A stretch of DNA of 64,000 nt from Candidatus Latescibacterota bacterium. Its GTDB lineage: Bacteria > JAAXHH01. The stretch covers positions 37,240 to 101,239 of the forward strand of contig JAAXHH010000013.1 of NCBI GenBank assembly GCA_012270975.1, given 5' to 3'. Under the pieces are notes generated by a model, which was not told where the DNA came from, did not search any database, and saw only the letters and a list, made by a program, of their open reading frames with translations. The translations under genes and the position numbers were made by a program. This document shows, piece by piece, positions 1 through 23,857 of the stretch. The first letter of the stretch is position 1, and every line of letters begins with the position of its first letter.

Positions 1-1909
1 ATACGGTGACGCCGGCCAGCAGGCCGCCGAGCGTCTCCGGGCCGAAGACGAAACCCACGACTACGGGCGTCAGAACGGCCAGCAGGCCGGGAAGGACCAT
101 GCGGCGAATGGCCGCCTTGGTGGAGATCTCCACGCACCGGGCGTACTCCGGCTTGCCGCTCGCCGCCTCGAAGACGTCCCGGTCCTCCTGGGTCCAGTCC
201 CCTTCGTCCACCCCGTCGTTCTTCTTCATCACCGACAGTGCGGCCTTGAGCTCCGGGATGGCGTTGAACTGGCGCCGGACCTCCTCGATCATGGCCATGG
301 CCGCCTGTCCCACGGCGTTCATGGCGAGGGCGGAGAAGAGGAAGGGCAGCATGCCGCCCACGAAGAGTCCCGCCATGACACGGGGATTGGCGATGTCGAT
401 GCTCGAAATGCCCACCTGCACCATGTAGGCCGCGAAGAGCGCCAGCGCGGTCAGGGCCGCGGAGCCGATGGCGAAACCCTTGCCGATGGCCGCGGTCGTG
501 TTGCCCACCGCGTCGAGCTTGTCGGTTCGCTGGCGGACCTCGGGCGGAAGCTCCGCCATCTCGGCCACGCCGCCCGCGTTGTCGGAAATGGGACCGTAGG
601 CGTCCACCGCCAGCTGGATCCCCGTGTTGGACAGCATGCCCAGGGCTGCCATGGCGATCCCGTACAGTCCGGCGAAATAGTAAGCGCCCATGATGCCCGC
701 GGCGATGATCAGGATGGGAATGGCCGTGGACCGCATGCCGATGCCCAGTCCGGCGATGATGTTGGTCGCCGTGCCCGTCACGGACTGCCGCGAAATGGAC
801 GTGACCGGACCGGTATGAGTGCCCGTGTAGTGTTCGGTGATCAGGCCGATGCCCAGGCCGGCCAGCAGGCCGATCGTAGCCGCGATGAAGACGCCCAGGC
901 TGGTGTAGGTCTCCCCGCCCAGGGTGAAGTCGCCGGGCAGGAGGTAGTCGATAAGCAGGTACATGACGGCGACCATGATGGCGGAGGAGCCGAATTCGCC
1001 CTTGTTCAGGCCGGACTGGGGATTGCCGCCCTCCTTGACCGATACCATGAAGGTGCCGAGGATCGAGATGATGATGCCCGCGCCCGCGATGATCAGGGGC
1101 AGGGTGATGAAGACCGGATCGTATACGCCCGCGACGAGGATGCCGGCGCCCAGCACCATGGAGCCGAGGATGGAGCCCACGTAGGATTCGAAGAGGTCGG
1201 CGCCCATGCCGGCCACGTCGCCCACGTTGTCTCCCACGTTGTCGGCGATGGAGGCCGGATTAAGGGGATGGTCCTCGGGAATCCCCGCCTCCACCTTGCC
1301 CACCAGGTCGGCGCCCACGTCGGCCGCCTTGGTGTAGATGCCCCCGCCCACGCGGGCGAAGAGGGCGATCGACGAAGCGCCCAGCGAAAAGCCGGAAATG
1401 ACGTTCAGCACCCGGCCGATGCCGGACTCGTCAATGCCGAAGAGGCCCGTGTAGAGAATGAACAGGCCGCCGAGCCCCAGGACGCCCAGGCCCACCACGT
1501 TCAGTCCCATGACCGACCCGCCGGCGAATGCCACGTTCAGCGCCCGGGCCAGTCCGGTCCGTGCCGCGTGGGTCGTCCGCGTGTTGGCCCGTACGGCCAC
1601 GCGCATGCCCAGGAAGCCGGCCAGGCCCGAAGCCAGCGCGCCGGTGACGAAGGACAGGGCGATGAGGGCGCTGGACTCGACCTTGCCCATGTTCGCCACG
1701 GCCAGCAGCGCGGCCACGACCACGACGAAAATCGCCAGAACACGGTACTCCGCCTTGAGGAAGGCCATGGCGCCCTCGGAAATGCTGGCGCCAATGGACT
1801 TCATCTTGTCCGTTCCCTCATCCTGTCCGTTTATCCAGGCCGTCCTCCAGATGGCGTAAATCAATCCCAGCAGACCCGCGCCGATCACACCGTACATCAA
1901 CTCGTTCAT
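1..1909 (-). CDS. hppA: Membrane-bound (K+-dependent type) ion-translocating pyrophosphatase, 3' end truncated by window edge
   Basis: Manual translation from ATG at 1909: [19 protein letters not shown]...[59 protein letters not shown]...[35 protein letters not shown] is the mPPase substrate-binding signature. Absent from ORF track because it runs off the left edge. Confidence 0.96.
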
Positions 1910-2005
1910 ATCCCGAAACCTTCTCCCTTGAAATCGATCTCCCCTGAATAACGCACACCCGTTATTCTGTCGTCAGATGAATGTAATGCGAACGTCCACA
2001 CACAC

Positions 2006-2032
2006 AGAGGGCGGGTCTGGAACCCGCCCTCT
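2006..2032 (-). terminator. Perfect 11-bp inverted repeat (AGAGGGCGGGT-ctgga-ACCCGCCCTCT) between tonB-like gene and hppA
   Basis: Direct reading of stem-loop downstream of the minus-strand stop at 2100; no strong U-tract, so intrinsic termination is likely but not certain. Confidence 0.6.
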
Positions 2033-2099
2033 GTTCTACCAAAACTGCCAGAAGGTATGCGCCGCGACGACAACCCGGTGGCGACGCTGAAAACCGGCC

Positions 2100-2840
2100 T
2101 CAGCGTAATCTGAACACCACGGACTGCGCAACCCAGACGGCCACCGGCCGGTTATTCTGGATCGCGGGCGTGTAGATCGTCCGCCTGATTGCTTCGATCG
2201 CCGCTTCATCCAGGCCGGCGCCAACGCCTCTTGCGAGTATCGTTTCTCGAACCCTGCCTTCCTTGTCGACCAGGATCCTGACGATCACCGTGCCCTCTAT
2301 ACCTGCCTTGCGAGCAAGTTCCGGGTATTCGGGCGAGATCGGCGTGGTTGGCTGGGGGCCGACCTCAAAGGGTATAAACGCATCGGGCGGCGGCAGCGCC
2401 TCATCCTCTATGGCGATGTTTTCTTCTTCCGGCGCCTCGATGATGATATTCTCTTCCTCGATATCCTGGATCACCGGCGCGATGCTCTGGCTCATCTCGG
2501 TCTGCGTGGCGATCGTCATCTCCGCGGATACTTCGGCGTCATCCACGGGTTCCGGGATGCCGATCACCGGCCGGGAAGGCGCCTCCACCGGTACCTCCGG
2601 CATTTCCGGTGCGTCGGTGAGCGCCGGCGGCGGCCCCAGGTCGGCATACGTCACGATCGTAGTCGCGTACTGCCGGTTCATCTCCTGGAGATACCAGACG
2701 GTCCAGTAGGTACCCAGCGCAATCATGTGAATGATGATGGCTGCGAGGATGCCCCGTTTGGCGTTCCTCTGGTAGAAGAACTTGATGGGGGATTCTTTCT
2801 TCAGAGGAAAATGTTCGACGCTGAGCAGCGATCCGATCAT
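2100..2840 (-). CDS. Energy transducer TonB-family protein
   Basis: N-terminal TM segment, acidic/proline-rich linker, C-terminal TonB domain (YPELARKAGIEGTVIVRILVDKEGRVRE...AAIEAIRRTIYTPAIQNNRPVAVWV). Confidence 0.92.
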   Translation of the reverse strand: MIGSLLSVEHFPLKKESPIKFFYQRNAKRGILAAIIIHMIALGTYWTVWYLQEMNRQYATTIVTYADLGPPPALTDAPEMPEVPVEAPSRPVIGIPEPVDDAEVSAEMTIATQTEMSQSIAPVIQDIEEENIIIEAPEEENIAIEDEALPPPDAFIPFEVGPQPTTPISPEYPELARKAGIEGTVIVRILVDKEGRVRETILARGVGAGLDEAAIEAIRRTIYTPAIQNNRPVAVWVAQSVVFRLR

Positions 2841-3355
2841 GAGCCAAACACCTCCTCGTACTTATCCTGCTCCAGAACCGTAATACTGAAACGGTCGATG
2901 GCGCCCAACTGAAGTTCGTCCATGACGTTGACCATCTGCTCGTAGGGACTCGTGCGCTGTATCATCACCAGGGTCACCAGCTTGGATTCGCCGTCATGCT
3001 CTTCGGCGTTCTCCGCTTCCTTCTCCTTGATGAAATCCTGGACATCATCCAGCGTAAGCAGTTCCGGCGTCATGTCCCTGCCGATCTGCCAGAACATGCG
3101 ATCATCGTCCAGCATGTAGATCAGCAGCACGTTCGATTCCGCGATCTCGACCTTGTCGTCCTTGTCGGGCGGAATGTTGAGCTCCATGGTCTGCGGCGCT
3201 CTGAACACCGTGGTGACCATAAAGAAGATGAGCAGGAGGAATGCGATGTCCACCATGGGCGTCATGTCGATGAAAATCTGGTCGCGCGGCTTTTTCTTCT
3301 TAGCGCCTTCCTTCTTCCTGTCGCTGGCTTTCTGAGTGCCCTGGACAGCTGCCAT
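2837..3355 (-). CDS. Biopolymer transporter ExbD/TolR family protein
   Basis: DMTPMVDIAFLLLIFFMVTTVFRAPQTMELNIP motif; overlaps tonB start by 4 bp. Confidence 0.92.
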   Translation of the reverse strand: MAAVQGTQKASDRKKEGAKKKKPRDQIFIDMTPMVDIAFLLLIFFMVTTVFRAPQTMELNIPPDKDDKVEIAESNVLLIYMLDDDRMFWQIGRDMTPELLTLDDVQDFIKEKEAENAEEHDGESKLVTLVMIQRTSPYEQMVNVMDELQLGAIDRFSITVLEQDKYEEVFGS

Positions 3356-3361
3356 GTGTCA

Positions 3362-3850
3362 TCACCTCCTTACCAGGTCGTGGTTGACCGGCCTCAGGCT
3401 GGTGGGCTCGTCGTCGGACGACGAGCCGCCGTCGTCCTCGAAGTTGGTCACCAGGTTGAACCGGGTATTGTTCGTTTTCTGGAGAATTTCCATCATGTCG
3501 CTGATAACGCCAAACTCGGCATCCTTGTGCGCCTTGATGGCGATACGCAGCCTGGGATTGCGGATACGCGCTTCCACCAGCGCCTTCTCCATTTCGGACA
3601 TCTCGATCGATACCTCGGGCTGGGGTTCCAGCCGCCAGAACATCTGGTTTTCGGGTTTTGGACCGACCGTCAGAATCACGACGTCCGATTCAGGCAGCTT
3701 GATCACCGAATGCGATTCCGGCAAAAGAATGGGGATCGATTCCGGTGCCTTGAACTGGGTCGTCGCCATGAAGAAGATGAGCAGCAGGAAGGCGATATCC
3801 ACCATAGGGGTCATGTCGATCATGACCGGCTTGTGTTTTCCGTGCGCCAT
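3362..3850 (-). CDS. Biopolymer transporter ExbD/TolR family protein (second copy)
   Basis: MIDMTPMVDIAFLLLIFFMATTQFKAPESIPILLPES motif. Confidence 0.92.
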   Translation of the reverse strand: MAHGKHKPVMIDMTPMVDIAFLLLIFFMATTQFKAPESIPILLPESHSVIKLPESDVVILTVGPKPENQMFWRLEPQPEVSIEMSEMEKALVEARIRNPRLRIAIKAHKDAEFGVISDMMEILQKTNNTRFNLVTNFEDDGGSSSDDEPTSLRPVNHDLVRR

Positions 3851-3876
3851 ATCTCAGACTCCTTAATGCCGCCCGA

Positions 3877-4593
3877 TTAGGCCCGGCCGGTAAGAATGGC
3901 CAGGACTTCCTGTGCCACTTCGTCGACGGCGTAGGTGAACATGTCCACCTTGTTGACGAAGTAATTGTACGCGACGATACCCATGATGGCCGCGGCCAGT
4001 CCGCCCGCCGTGTTGATCAGCGCTTCCGAGATGCCGAGGGCGAGCTGAATGGCGTCCGGCGCACCTTCGTTGGCCATGGCGGCAAAGGCGCGGATCATGC
4101 CGATCGTCGTCCCGAGCAGCCCCACCAGGGTGGCGATGGTCGCGATGGTCTGCAGCGCGATCAGGTTGCGTTCGAGCAACGGCGTCTCGAGGGCATTGGC
4201 TTCTTCGAAGGCCCGCTTGATCTCCTGCACCTGCCGGTCGCTCGTCAGGTTCTCATCGGCGATGGTCTCGAAACGCTCGAGGCCTGCGCGCAGCACGTTC
4301 GCCATGGTGCCCTGCTGGGCATTGCACAGGTTGACCGCCCGGGTGATATCGTTGTTGCGTATCGCGCCCATGGCGTCCTTGAGAAAGGCCACCTGCGACC
4401 GCTTCCCGCGGGCTTTCTTCAGCGTCAGCGACCGCTCGATGATGAAGGTGATATCCAGCATGGTGAGCACCATGAGGCCGATTACCACCGGTCCGCCGTC
4501 CTTTACGAACTGTGGCAGAAAGTACTCGAAGATTATCCATGAAACTATAAAGCAAAGGACGATAATGATCATGATAAAGGCGCCTGGCCGCAT
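3877..4593 (-). CDS. MotA/TolQ/ExbB proton channel family protein
   Basis: IATIATLVGLLGTTIGMIRAFAAMAN...ISEALINTAGGLAAAIMGIVAYNYF signature. Confidence 0.93.
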   Translation of the reverse strand: MRPGAFIMIIIVLCFIVSWIIFEYFLPQFVKDGGPVVIGLMVLTMLDITFIIERSLTLKKARGKRSQVAFLKDAMGAIRNNDITRAVNLCNAQQGTMANVLRAGLERFETIADENLTSDRQVQEIKRAFEEANALETPLLERNLIALQTIATIATLVGLLGTTIGMIRAFAAMANEGAPDAIQLALGISEALINTAGGLAAAIMGIVAYNYFVNKVDMFTYAVDEVAQEVLAILTGRA

Positions 4594-4868
4594 ATCAATT
4601 TCTCCTTAAACTTTGTTCTGGTACGATTGTGAACGGAATACTGAAACTATCATCTCACTGTTAGATCATCCCTGCCAGATAAACCGAAATACTACAGGAT
4701 CTTAACGAGTCCTTTTAACTTCGGCGGGACAAACGCCTTTCTTGACCACCACCTTTCCATCCGTGTCCTGTGTGTCGCCTGTGAACAGGCTTTGGTAATG
4801 TTCCGAATGCCGGTTCTTCCCCAACACGCGCTACGCGCAGCGCGGCGGGCCGGTAATATGACCGATTC

Positions 4869-6866
4869 TCAACCGCCCTGCAATTGCTCGTAGATCTCCC
4901 GCACGGTGTTCAACTGTTCCCGCGCCCTGCCATTGTTCGGATCCAGCTTCAGGCACTCCCTGTAATGGCGGATCGCCGGGCCGAGTTGTTGGGAATTCGT
5001 ATAGGCCTGGGCGAGCAGGAGATGGTAGGAAGCCTCGTCCGGCTTCAACTCGATGGCCTTCCGGAGCCGGCCGATGGCACCGCCCCAGTCCTCGTTCATC
5101 ACCCGGTCGAATCCAAGCCGGTAATAGGCTTCGTGATCGGTAGGATCGATTTCGAGCACGCGCTGAAACGTCGTGCGCGCATTCGAAAAGTCCTCTAGGA
5201 TCAGGTATGCCGTACCCAGGAACTTCAACGGCTGGAGAATAGACTTCGGATCTTCCTCAGCCTCTTCGGACCTGAGGTTCAGGGCATGCATCAAGGCATC
5301 CCGGGCGACCGCGCCTTCACTGGCCACCAGCCCGGCGATACCCATGTTCAGAAAGGCCGTGTAGGACGTACTGTCGTGGGAGACCTTGGCGCGGTACATA
5401 TCTATCGAAGCGGAGTAGATGGCTGGCCGCTGGTCGCGCTCCACGTCGCGCGCTTCGCCGTATATCTCTCTGCCGAGATTATAGTACACATTGCTCAGCG
5501 TGAGTTTTGTCCGTTCGTTCTCCGCCGCCTGTATCGCCGGCTCCAGCACTGCTTTGACGGCCGTCACGGCCTGCCCGTATTGTCCCTGCTTGATGAACGA
5601 ACGTCCGTAGTAGGCGTATGGATTCTGATCATTCGGATTGACCCTGATGGCCTCTTCGAGGTATGGAATGGCCTCCCCGTACTTCTCCTGGTCGAAATAG
5701 ACCAGCGCCAGCTGGATGTAGGGCTTCTCCGACGAACCGTCCAGTTCAATGGACTTCTTCAGATTGACGATGCCTTCGTCGTACAGGCCCACCTCCGGCT
5801 GCGTCTGTACCCAGCCCAGGCTGAAATGCAACTCCGCGTTGTCCGCGTTCTGCATCAGGGCTTCCTTGTAGGCGTTGACCGCCTCTGTGTACATGCCTTC
5901 GGCCACCAGTCCGTCCCCCATGGGCAGATAGGCTTCAATCTTGCCCGGATCCAGCTCGACGGTCTTCATGTAATGCGGCACCGCCATTTTGATCCGTCTC
6001 GTCTTGTTGAGCGACTCGGCCAGCATGAAATAGGCCTCGGCGTTCGTATCGTCGAGGGCGACGTACTTTTCCAACGGCTCGACGGCGAGGGGATACCGTT
6101 CGGCGACGTACTGGATGAACCCCTGCTGGAACCAGGCGTCTTTCAGGGTGGGATCAAGTTCCGTCGCTTTCCGGAATCCGGCGTAGGATTCGTTCCACTG
6201 CCGCGCCTTGAAATGCAACTGGCCGATCCGGTAGTGGGTCATGGCCGCGTCCGGGGAATCGGGCTGCATGGCGAGGGCCTGCCGGTAGTTGGTGATGGCC
6301 AGCCCCCAGACGTTCTGGGCCTCGTAGACGTCGCCCAGCCCCTGTACGTACAGCGGGTTCTGCGGGTCGATTCCACGCGCCCGTGTGAAGAGAACCATGG
6401 CGCTCTGCAGATCGTCCTGGGCAATGGCCAGCTGACCCTCGGAATAGAAGAACCTCGCGTCCTTCTCCTTGGTGCGCTTCAGACCTTCCCGGATCGACTT
6501 CTCCGCTTCCTCGAACTGGCCCTTTTCGATCTGCAGCAGGCTCAGTTCGAAACGGGCGTCGTGGTTTTTCTTCTGCTGGTCCACGGCGATGTCGAATTCG
6601 GACAGGGCTTCATCCGTGTGTCCCTGCCTTTTCAATGCCAGGCCGAGCAGGTAATGGGCGTCCGTATTTTTCTTCCCGTTGCTGAGCACGTCCCGGAGTA
6701 TGGAAATGGCTTCGTCGTAATTCCCGCCGTCGTAGGCCGCCCGGGCGGCGCCCACGCTTTGCGCTTCCGCCGGCTCCGGCGCTCCGGCCATGCCGGCCAG
6801 CAACAGCACGCCCAGGGCGAGGAATACGCCGAGGCATTTCCCGCGGTACAATCCTGCGATCCACAT
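4869..6866 (-). CDS. Tetratricopeptide repeat protein, exported (signal-peptide-like N-terminus)
   Basis: Many TPR units (e.g. ALKRQGHTDEALSEFDIAV; AYYRLGFDRVMNEDWGGAIGRLRKAIELKPDEASYHLLLAQAY). Confidence 0.9.
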   Translation of the reverse strand: MWIAGLYRGKCLGVFLALGVLLLAGMAGAPEPAEAQSVGAARAAYDGGNYDEAISILRDVLSNGKKNTDAHYLLGLALKRQGHTDEALSEFDIAVDQQKKNHDARFELSLLQIEKGQFEEAEKSIREGLKRTKEKDARFFYSEGQLAIAQDDLQSAMVLFTRARGIDPQNPLYVQGLGDVYEAQNVWGLAITNYRQALAMQPDSPDAAMTHYRIGQLHFKARQWNESYAGFRKATELDPTLKDAWFQQGFIQYVAERYPLAVEPLEKYVALDDTNAEAYFMLAESLNKTRRIKMAVPHYMKTVELDPGKIEAYLPMGDGLVAEGMYTEAVNAYKEALMQNADNAELHFSLGWVQTQPEVGLYDEGIVNLKKSIELDGSSEKPYIQLALVYFDQEKYGEAIPYLEEAIRVNPNDQNPYAYYGRSFIKQGQYGQAVTAVKAVLEPAIQAAENERTKLTLSNVYYNLGREIYGEARDVERDQRPAIYSASIDMYRAKVSHDSTSYTAFLNMGIAGLVASEGAVARDALMHALNLRSEEAEEDPKSILQPLKFLGTAYLILEDFSNARTTFQRVLEIDPTDHEAYYRLGFDRVMNEDWGGAIGRLRKAIELKPDEASYHLLLAQAYTNSQQLGPAIRHYRECLKLDPNNGRAREQLNTVREIYEQLQGG

Positions 6867-20567: not shown

Positions 20568-21806
20568 CTACACTCCGATGCGGTCGCGGTGGCGCCGTTC
20601 GATGTGGTGCGAGACCGAGCGGCACACCCGGGAGATGCCTTCGCCGATGAGCGACTGGTCGAGAAAGCTGTAGCACAGGCGGAACTGGTTCGCTCCCCGA
20701 CCGTCGGTATAGAACGAAGGGCCGGCCACGTAGGCTACCTTCTCATGTTCCACGGCCCAGGCCAGCATCGCCGAAGCGTCGATCCCCTCGGGTGCGGTCA
20801 ACCACACGTAGAATCCTCCGTCCGGCCGGGTCCAGGTCATGCCGGGCGGGGAATGCTCCGACAGCGCGTCCAGCGTGACATTGCGCTTGGTCTGGTAAAG
20901 CGCCCTGGACAGTACGATCTGGGAATCCATCAGTCCCTGGCGGCCGTATTCGTAGACGATGCGCTGTCCAAGCGTGCTGGAACACTGGTCGCTGCCCAGC
21001 TTCGCCTGGCACAACTGGGCGATGACGGGCGGCGGCGCGGCGATCCATCCGAGACGGATGCCCGGTCCGAAGATCTTGGAGAAAGTGCTGACGAACAGGA
21101 CGCCGTCGGGATTGAGTGCCTTGAGCGAAGGAGGGGGCGCATGGTCGAAGTACAGTTCCGCGTAAGCGTGGTCTTCCAGGATGGGGATATTGTACCGGTC
21201 GGCGAGTTCGACCAGCCTGCGCCGCCGTTCCAGGGGCATGGTGACGCCGCCCGGATTCTGAAACGCCGGCATGGTGTAAATCAGCTTGGCGCGCTTGCCC
21301 CGGCGTTCCAGTTCCCTCAACTGTTCTTCCAGGAGATCCACGCGCATGCCGTCGTCGTCGATATCCACCGCGACGAAATCCACGTCGTAACACCGGAAGA
21401 CCGAGAACGCGGTCAGGTAGGTTGGGGCTTCCACGATGACGATATCGCCGGGGTTGAGCAGCGTCTTGGCGATGAGATCCATGGCCTCGATCCCGCCCGT
21501 GGTGACGATAATGTCGTCCATCGTGGCGGTCACGCCTTCGACGGGTCCCATGCGGTCGGCGATCCATTCCCTGAGGGCGGTGTAACCCGCCGTGGGACCG
21601 TATTGCAGCGACATGCTCCCGTGCGTTTCGAAGACCTGGACGGCGACTTCCTTCATCGCGTCCATGGGGAACGTGGCGGCATCCGGCAAACCGCCGGCAA
21701 ATGATAGGACATCCGGCCGTTCCGCCAGCTTGAGCAGCTCAATGACCGCGGTGTCGCCAATGAGTTCCATGCGATCTGCTAATACATCCCGCCAGTCCAT
21801 CAACAA
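20568..21806 (-). CDS. PLP-dependent aminotransferase (class I/II; 2-aminoadipate transaminase/MocR-like fold)
   Basis: LSFAGGLPDAATFP...LQYGPTAGYTALREWIADRM...DIIVTTGGIEAMDLIAKTLLNPGDIVIVEAPTYLTAFSVF...STFSKIFGPGIRLGWIAAP. Confidence 0.93.
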   Translation of the reverse strand: MLMDWRDVLADRMELIGDTAVIELLKLAERPDVLSFAGGLPDAATFPMDAMKEVAVQVFETHGSMSLQYGPTAGYTALREWIADRMGPVEGVTATMDDIIVTTGGIEAMDLIAKTLLNPGDIVIVEAPTYLTAFSVFRCYDVDFVAVDIDDDGMRVDLLEEQLRELERRGKRAKLIYTMPAFQNPGGVTMPLERRRRLVELADRYNIPILEDHAYAELYFDHAPPPSLKALNPDGVLFVSTFSKIFGPGIRLGWIAAPPPVIAQLCQAKLGSDQCSSTLGQRIVYEYGRQGLMDSQIVLSRALYQTKRNVTLDALSEHSPPGMTWTRPDGGFYVWLTAPEGIDASAMLAWAVEHEKVAYVAGPSFYTDGRGANQFRLCYSFLDQSLIGEGISRVCRSVSHHIERRHRDRIGV

Positions 21807-22067
21807 CCCCCTGCGCGTAGTGCGAATGTAAAACGAACCGAACCACAGCCGGTCTCACGACCGGTGATTCCGGACCGGTGTCTTCCGGTCCTTTAAAAAC
21901 ACCGCGAAAAACGATCCGCACGATCTCCTTCCGCGTGCATTATTGTATGATTCGGCCCGCGGGAAAACAAGGCCAAAATTCCTTGACATCCTCGAAGGGT
22001 CTGGGGTTATCATGGCGAACGAATAGTGTCCTATTCACGCCCATCCCCTGCCCTGAGAGGTTATTAC

Positions 22068-22325
22068 ATGGCCGAGGACAGCCAGGTCGTAGCAAGCTTT
22101 CAGAAGAACAGCCAGGAGGAGTTCCGTTTCACCATCACGTCGTTCCGGGGAAACGAATACGCCGACATCCGCATCTACTACGAAAACGAAGGCGATTTCC
22201 TGCCCAGCAGGAAGGGCATTACCGTCTCGCCTGATGCGTGGTCAGCGTTCAGGTCCTGCCTCGACAAACTGGAGTCGGAACTCAGGGAGCGCAATCTGCT
22301 CAAAGACGACGACGGCGAGGCCTGA
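22068..22325 (+). CDS. Transcriptional coactivator p15/PC4-family ssDNA-binding protein
   Basis: EEFRFTITSFRGNEYADIRIYYENEGDFLPSRKGITVSPDAWSAFRSCLDKLESEL. Confidence 0.8.
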   Translation: MAEDSQVVASFQKNSQEEFRFTITSFRGNEYADIRIYYENEGDFLPSRKGITVSPDAWSAFRSCLDKLESELRERNLLKDDDGEA

Positions 22326-22383: not shown

Positions 22384-23610
22384 CTACCCGACCCGGTGCC
22401 CGTCCCGGGCGAGAAAGCACTCCGGGTCGTGGTGGATCGGGAGATATCCGGTGCTCATGAGAAACTCGCCGACGATCTCCGGGCCCATGAACCGGAAGGT
22501 CTTCCTGAACACCGCGACCCATTCGTCCAGTGACGCGCAGGGCTGGACATCCAGCCACGCCTTGAAGGATCCGTACGACCGCCTGATCTCCTGGAATACC
22601 CGCGCGTTGTGGATGGCCGCGTCGATCTTGAGCCGGTTTCGGATTATGCCAGTGTCCGCGAGCAGGCGCGCGCGGTCTTTTTCACCGTAGGCCGCGACTC
22701 GGTCCACATCGAACCCGTCGAATGCCTCCCGCAGCGCCCTTCGCTTCTTCAGGACCGTCAGCCAGCTCAGCCCCGCCTGGTTGATCTCCAGCACGAGCCG
22801 CTCGAGGAAATCGTCGTCCCTGGCCAGGGGAAAACCGTATTCGTCGTCGTGGTAAGCGGCCAGCAGCGGGTCTTTCAACGTCCAGGCGCACCGGGTCCGG
22901 TCGCCGTCCTCCTCTACGTACTCGCCGGTATGGAAGGGACGGCTGTCCGTCCCGGTGATCCACGCCTCGGGCAGGTGGCGCGTGCAGTTCATCAGCGCCA
23001 GGTGGGTGTAGGTGGGCGTGATGATGAACCGCGTCACGGACGTATTGGCGAACCAGTCGATACGGTCGTGCCCCATGCCCGGTGTGCCCAGGATCACGCC
23101 CACGAGAAACCGCATGAACGCGCCGTGACTGATCAGCACCACACGTTCGCCGGTGTCGCCGAATTCGTCGTGAATCCTGCGGGCAACCTCCTCGGCCCGT
23201 TTCTGGGCGGACTCGTAGTCCTCCCAGGGCCGGCACTTCCACCATCCCGATTCGTCGAATTCGTCACCCAGCCGGACTTCCGGGAATCCCTGCTCGATCT
23301 CCGAACGCTTCATGCCGGGCCGTCCCTCGTAGTCCGCGTTGCCGGCGCCGGCCTGGACTCCGCCCTGTTCGTGTAGGTCGATCCATGCTTCCACGGACTG
23401 CCCCGTCTCCCGGATGTACGGTGCGATGGTTTCCAGCGTGCGCAGGAAGGGGCTGACGAAGATGCGGGTCGGGCGCATGTGGCGGATGCGGTTCACGAGG
23501 TATTCCGCCTGCCGGTATCCGAGGGCGGACAGGGTGGGATCCTCGGTGCGCTCTTCCTGCGGCCGGGCGTTGTTCTCGGACTCCGCGTGACGGATTATGT
23601 AAAGTTCCAT
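22384..23610 (-). CDS. Histidine phosphatase domain fused to DNA-3-methyladenine glycosylase I (TAG) domain
   Basis: N-term MELYIIRHAESENNARP...LSALGYRQAEYLVNRIRHM...VVLISHGAFMRFLVGVILG; C-term RCAWTLKDPLLAAYHDDEYGFPLARDDDFLERLVLEINQAGLSWLTVLKKRRALREAFDGFDVDRVAAYGEKDRARLLADTGIIRNRLKIDAAIHNA...FRFMGPEIVGEFLMSTGYLPIHHDPEC. Confidence 0.92.
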   Translation of the reverse strand: MELYIIRHAESENNARPQEERTEDPTLSALGYRQAEYLVNRIRHMRPTRIFVSPFLRTLETIAPYIRETGQSVEAWIDLHEQGGVQAGAGNADYEGRPGMKRSEIEQGFPEVRLGDEFDESGWWKCRPWEDYESAQKRAEEVARRIHDEFGDTGERVVLISHGAFMRFLVGVILGTPGMGHDRIDWFANTSVTRFIITPTYTHLALMNCTRHLPEAWITGTDSRPFHTGEYVEEDGDRTRCAWTLKDPLLAAYHDDEYGFPLARDDDFLERLVLEINQAGLSWLTVLKKRRALREAFDGFDVDRVAAYGEKDRARLLADTGIIRNRLKIDAAIHNARVFQEIRRSYGSFKAWLDVQPCASLDEWVAVFRKTFRFMGPEIVGEFLMSTGYLPIHHDPECFLARDGHRVG

Positions 23611-23857
23611 TGGGTTGCCGGTCTTTCTCCTGGCGGTCTGCCGGTTCAGGGTGAATGGTTCCGGATGGCTCCAGCGCCCGGGTTCAACGTGACGTTTTGC
23701 AGCGCGGATCACGGTTTCGCTTACTTCCGGGCACGACTTCCGTAAGGTATATTCCCGGTCTTTCCGTAAAAAGGAAAACGATTGACAGGCATGGCGGCGA
23801 AGGTTAAGGTTTCCCTCTCGTGCCGGAACGGATTTCCCACGACAGGAGCGTGCTCAG

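Follow-up and report, generated by a model that had tools for sequence, protein, structure and literature searches.

A histidine phosphatase fused to a short TAG-type DNA-3-methyladenine glycosylase in a genus of Candidatus Latescibacterota: probably two independent enzymes in one chain

The DNA-3-methyladenine glycosylase TAG is treated as a minimal stand-alone enzyme. Fusions of histidine phosphatases to nucleic-acid enzymes are already known, namely RNase HI-CobC and MutT1. In the actinobacterial RNase HI-CobC (MSMEG_4305 / Rv2228c) the phosphatase domain is C-terminal and contributes to vitamin B12 synthesis; the domains of this protein are largely independent in vivo, and its fixation in Mycolicibacterium was ascribed by the authors most probably to drift (PMC7466739). 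In the mycobacterial MutT1 a Nudix hydrolase of 8-oxo-(d)GTP is followed by a C-terminal histidine-phosphatase (RHG) domain (PMC11784022). As for glycosylases, a review of their extra domains discusses Tag for its zinc snap, and the parts of that review reached by a term search contain no phosphatase-fused glycosylase (PMC9266487). The initial annotation of the gene described here knew of no histidine phosphatase-TAG enzyme, and our literature search likewise found no published description of one.

Here, we analysed a gene that joins these two domains end to end, located in a 64,000-nucleotide stretch of Candidatus Latescibacterota DNA (the whole stretch is called the window; Table 1). It had been proposed that one uninterrupted minus-strand open reading frame encodes both domains, and this was borne out by the frame, by its translation and by Pfam, where PF00300 and PF03352 were both matched in one protein. 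The product has 408 amino acids, encoded from an ATG at 23610 to a TAG stop. Upstream of this ATG the frame is open as far as a GTG at 23712 (442 aa), and the stop-to-stop lengths vary among the 12 genomes of the genus, while the 408 residues from MELY onwards are gap-free in all of them; the GTG start was rejected since the upstream extension is not conserved. The AGGAG motif before the ATG would act as a ribosome-binding site, with a spacing longer than usual.

Table 1. Features of the fusion locus and its context in the window.
Feature	Coordinates	Strand	Evidence or remark
Fusion gene, histidine phosphatase-linker-TAG-type glycosylase	22384..23610	-	open frame, translation, Pfam; full length in 12/12 genus genomes
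Histidine phosphatase domain, residues 1-209	22984..23610	-	PF00300, structural matches, family alignment
Interdomain linker, residues 222-236	22903..22947	-	pLDDT < 50; dN/dS 0.31 for residues 210-238
Short-type TAG domain, residues 239-400	22411..22896	-	PF03352, PDB TAG match, Foldseek, alignment with stand-alone short TAGs
AGGAG motif upstream of fusion ATG	23627..23631	-	upstream sequences; 16 nt distance constant in nearly all 12 genomes
PC4-like ssDNA-binding protein, 99 aa, convergent neighbour (context only)	22026..22325	+	PF02229, E 1.5e-16
Class I/II aminotransferase, syntenic (context only)	20568..21806	-	PF00155; 64% identical, same side in G013

The fusion is intact and stop-free in all 12 genomes of the genus that were searched, the 11 relatives being 87-93% identical to the window copy; these genomes come from several sequencing projects, and their records are labelled Candidatus Latescibacterota or Gemmatimonadetes MAGs. 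An alignment of the 12 proteins contains no gaps, the linker included. Judged by substitution rates, both halves are under purifying selection (median dN/dS 0.09 for the phosphatase and 0.14 for TAG), and the linker is relaxed and the fastest-evolving part (0.31 for residues 210-238). In this the gene resembles RNase HI-CobC, which also joins a histidine phosphatase to a nucleic-acid enzyme in one clade, with a variable linker and domains under purifying selection; the partner enzyme and the lineage are different, and the order of the domains is reversed (PMC7466739). With MutT1 it has in common that a histidine-phosphatase domain is joined to a genome-maintenance enzyme. An AlphaFold2 model of the fusion (64 sequences; mean pLDDT 86.8, pTM 0.57) gave two confident folds, low confidence at residues 222-236 and no confident arrangement of the domains; the low pTM may still be compatible with the existence of a domain interface.

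The ancestry of the fusion can be read from related loci. Within the genus, the neighbouring genes for a PC4-like protein, an aminotransferase, a PhyH-like protein and ABC transporter components are conserved as far as the contigs reach. In G013, from the same family but another genus, phosphatase (231 aa) and TAG (168 aa) are encoded by adjacent, separate and intact genes in the same orientation, and a GAGGAG shortly precedes the second (TAG) ATG. Since G013 and the window both have genes for an M16 peptidase, a PC4-like protein and an aminotransferase in this region, we regard the two loci as orthologous. In trees the G013 phosphatase groups with the phosphatase half of the fusion (SH-aLRT 100; the group also holds G012), and the G013 TAG with the TAG half (SH-aLRT 87). 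In G012, from another genus, the phosphatase stands alone with an SDR gene after it, and the canonical TAG of this genome is on a different contig; this phosphatase locus has the M16 peptidase and a permease in common with G013. A canonical TAG is present in G014, and no TAG was detected in G015. In G013 a heavy-metal-type ATPase gene (L101:2157-4406, +) lies between TAG and the PC4-like and aminotransferase genes, and is absent from that place in the window. At the genus loci the PC4-like gene keeps its place next to the fusion, and in G013 it lies close to the two separate genes; it is a possible functional neighbour of a repair gene.

Given the adjacent pair in G013 and the lone phosphatase in G012, the fusion most likely arose by joining of an operon pair in the ancestor of the genus. 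The sequences show a stand-alone branch-1 histidine phosphatase in the family and, in the G013 lineage, a short-type TAG gene placed directly downstream as a two-gene operon; in the genus of the window the phosphatase stop and the TAG start have disappeared, leaving the single frame that encodes one chain, probably fixed in the ancestor. In the simplest history, TAG arrived beside a lone phosphatase, or was lost from it in G012, before the joining. Codons 233-234 of the linker in the window copy could be a remnant of the ancestral GAGGAG, which is suggestive only, because other species have GAAGAA there. Production of a separate TAG by internal initiation was rejected, no well-placed in-frame start being conserved. 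The one start codon common to all 12 fusions is ATG 207, which G013 also keeps though its TAG has its own start; other internal starts are scattered, and initiation at TTG 245 would drop the first zinc cysteine.

The phosphatase half matches PF00300 over residues 3-209 (E 5.5e-29, 101.7 bits against a gathering threshold of 21.7; profile positions 1-193 of 194). The catalytic positions of branch-1 histidine phosphatases (R7, H8, R57, E81 and H162) are present and are kept across the fusion set and the stand-alone relatives. Foldseek matches include several histidine phosphatases (phosphoserine phosphatase, PGAM5, PhoE), each at a probability of 1.00, and Bacillus PhoE is matched weakly by sequence in the PDB. 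The fold and the RH/R/E/H positions are thus those of branch-1 enzymes (PF00300; PhoE 1h2e, phosphoserine phosphatase 4ij5, PGAM5). Unlike the named members, however, this half belongs to an unnamed family (motif MELYIIRHxxSxNN ... HExGG ... GWW ... HG) that occurs for the most part in Chloroflexota and Spirochaetota, and it stays well below the curated NCBIfam cut-offs of PspA (42.9 vs 350), RNase HI-CobC (RNase H/acid phosphatase, 23.5 vs 326), GpmB, CobC, SixA and MutT1. Most Chloroflexota and Spirochaetota members carry an insertion of ~20 residues that is missing in the window's family, and no TAG was found near the phosphatase at the Chloroflexota and Spirochaetota loci examined.

On this evidence the gene probably encodes two co-expressed, largely independent enzymes tethered in one chain by gene fusion. 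We favour independent domains because relatives of both halves exist as stand-alone proteins and no other part evolves as fast as the linker; that both halves are active, are expressed as a single chain and work independently is what we infer. The TAG half, its ends held together by the zinc snap, would flip 3-methyladenine out of DNA and excise it, and the resulting abasic site would be dealt with by the usual repair enzymes. The phosphatase half would keep its ancestral job, the hydrolysis of small phosphomonoesters via a phosphohistidine at H8. A flexible linker would connect the halves, both would be produced in the same quantity, and neither channelling nor allostery would be involved.

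After a monofunctional glycosylase has acted, the DNA has an abasic site and no 3'-phosphate, and TAG releases a free base. A role of the phosphatase on DNA 3'-phosphates, one of the activities that the initial annotation proposed to assay, thus finds no support and fits poorly. The same annotation held a bifunctional or coupled DNA-repair protein to be plausible. Such an enzyme, whose phosphatase would act on damaged or methylated nucleotides or on another phosphate connected with repair, with TAG removing the same lesion from DNA, or which would sanitise the pool, is in our opinion unlikely, even though the fusion is conserved, an operon pair exists and a PC4-like ssDNA-binding gene is a conserved neighbour. 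TAG frees a base, so that no phosphate is left to remove. The phosphatase family is otherwise stand-alone and away from TAG at all loci examined, as seen in G012 and in many Chloroflexota and Spirochaetota; numerous relatives of the TAG half also stand alone, and the linker is poorly ordered. Histidine-phosphatase domains are fused elsewhere to nucleotide or nucleic-acid enzymes, MutT1 among them, but the cut-offs of MutT1 and of all named phosphatases are missed here, and mutation of the RHG histidine of MutT1 did not abolish the tested phosphatase activity (PMC11784022). Moreover, in RNase HI-CobC, the analogue that has been studied best, the two domains were judged to be functionally dissociated (PMC7466739). 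In its specific form, in which the substrate of the phosphatase half would be a phosphate-bearing precursor or product of alkylation damage (e.g., a methylated nucleotide), so that pool clean-up is coupled to lesion excision, the idea seems quite unlikely to us.

It is also rather improbable that the phosphatase half is a protein- or DNA-binding regulatory or scaffold domain and not an enzyme. The Foldseek matches do include tau55 of TFIIIC, a histidine-phosphatase domain in a DNA-bound complex, and the RHG domain of MutT1 may play an accessory role (PMC11784022); however, the tau55 match is no better than those to active phosphatases, all catalytic positions are kept, and the domain is under strong constraint.

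Turning to the TAG half, PF03352 is matched over residues 243-353 (E 1.8e-39, 135.9 bits against a gathering threshold of 25; profile positions 1-111 of 177). Solved TAGs are matched in the PDB by sequence (best match 5.4e-27; 2ofi, 1lmz, S. aureus 4aia and others), and TAG structures come first in Foldseek (2ofi/2ofk, probability 1.00). With the solved enzymes (PF03352; 1lmz/1nku, 2ofi/2ofk, S. aureus 4ai4) this half shares the fold, the zinc-snap C/H/H/C and the motifs YHD..(Y/W)G, LE..QAGLSW and IIRxRxK. C241, H254, H394 and C398 fall in the conserved C/H/HxxxC columns when TAGs are aligned, metal binding being predicted, and E275 and W283 correspond to positions in the 'LE..QAGLSW' motif of the solved TAGs; in keeping with the alignments, we take these two residues to have the catalytic roles of E38 and W46. 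The zinc-snap residues, the glutamate and the active-site motifs of both halves that the initial annotation quoted are all present.

The window's TAG differs from the solved ones in being fused C-terminally to a phosphatase, in lacking ~20-25 residues of the canonical C-terminal part, before the last helix, and in missing the cut-off of the TIGR00624 tag subfamily (127.3 vs 232.5 bits). The initial description of it as complete-looking therefore holds for the zinc and catalytic positions but not for this region. The same shortening marks an entire subclade, whose members are stand-alone proteins from Halomonadaceae, Rhodospirillaceae, Azospirillaceae, Gemmatimonadota, Balneolota and other groups and keep the zinc and catalytic positions; plasmids add further members, annotated as DNA-3-methyladenine glycosylase I. 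At loci L028-L044 (Proteobacteria, Gemmatimonadota, Balneolota) the subclade shows a motif like EWVKLFRKTFRFTGGEIVGEFLMSTGYLPGAHxxxCP. A short-TAG stretch, 62% identical, lies at 1224417-1224854 of NZ_CP119142.1, which like NZ_CP119140.1 is a PLSDB record of ~2.17 Mb labelled Neisseria gonorrhoeae; by size both resemble chromosomes filed as plasmids. One locus (L016; G125:C2:557567-558529) carries two adjacent TAG-like genes, one of the short type and the other 40% identical to the window's half. Since no solved structure among the matches comes from the short subclade, 3-methyladenine is assumed as its substrate.

The shortened C-terminal part, the 111 of 177 PF03352 positions matched and the missed subfamily cut-off could be taken to mean that the TAG half is a glycosylase for something other than 3-methyladenine, or an inactive DNA-binding module. 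We consider this very unlikely, as the zinc and catalytic positions are kept, the shortening is common to many stand-alone relatives, TAG structures are the first structural matches and none of the 12 genus genomes has a PF03352 protein other than the fusion. Our survey of alkyl-base glycosylases covered four families (PF03352, PF02245, AlkA_N and PF08713), with other general HhH-class glycosylases outside it. MPG (PF02245) and AlkA_N had no match in the phylum set. AlkD (PF08713) is clearly present in 7-8 of the 12 genomes (strong in G000, G002, G003, G004, G007, G008 and G011, weak in G010), and none was found in G001, G005, G006 and G009; in the near-complete G006 and G001, which consist of few contigs, the fusion is the sole member found of the four families.

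The survey of this architecture proposed initially gave 12 of 12 genomes within the genus and no second case elsewhere. Neither 384 genomes spread over the domain nor viral contigs yielded another phosphatase-TAG fusion, and none came from a pattern scan of 84,980 species, a method that depends on short exact peptide matches and can miss distant cases; on plasmids no record covers 80% of the query, and among the matches listed there are TAG halves only. The best reading is that this is a new architecture. Long open frames around some other TAGs (L061, L071, L104, L105, L106) look, by eye from their translations, like non-coding overhang of high-GC frames and were rejected.

TAG has also been joined, independently, to another unrelated enzyme in Helicobacter, where a canonical full-length TAG is inserted inside the GMP synthase GuaA and not joined end to end with a phosphatase. 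In Helicobacter sp. 10-6591 (L067:4341-6500) a profile scan places TAG between the amidotransferase and synthase parts of GuaA. In related genomes (L114:1501-4182, L115:1501-4122) a GNAT-like stretch of ~150 aa, called by eye and with no Pfam match at 0.001, is followed by TAG, in frame and again between these two parts of GuaA; L116:1501-3633 has a Pfam-supported GNAT domain inside the GuaA amidotransferase domain, and in the relative G385 the guaA matches are broken and TAG occupies a separate frame nearby. In Helicobacter the essential gene guaA looks to be a site of repeated insertion.

That assembly or gene calling wrongly joined two genes in the window is practically excluded: the genomes are metagenome-assembled and the sister genus G013 carries two genes, but the fusion is identical in length and context in 12 genomes from several separate projects, and its whole-frame dN/dS does not exceed 0.16 in any genome pair. 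Decaying read-through and an internal stop are likewise ruled out by the 12 intact copies and the low dN/dS, so that every genus member searched carries the fused, stop-free gene and not separate proteins.

That 12 species have retained the fusion, with no gap in the linker, could hint at an advantage beyond drift. With its three stages in living relatives (the phosphatase alone, the two-gene pair and the single chain), this family offers a clean case for weighing functional linkage against drift. If coupling of the two halves were true, it would suggest an unrecognised phosphatase step around alkylation repair.
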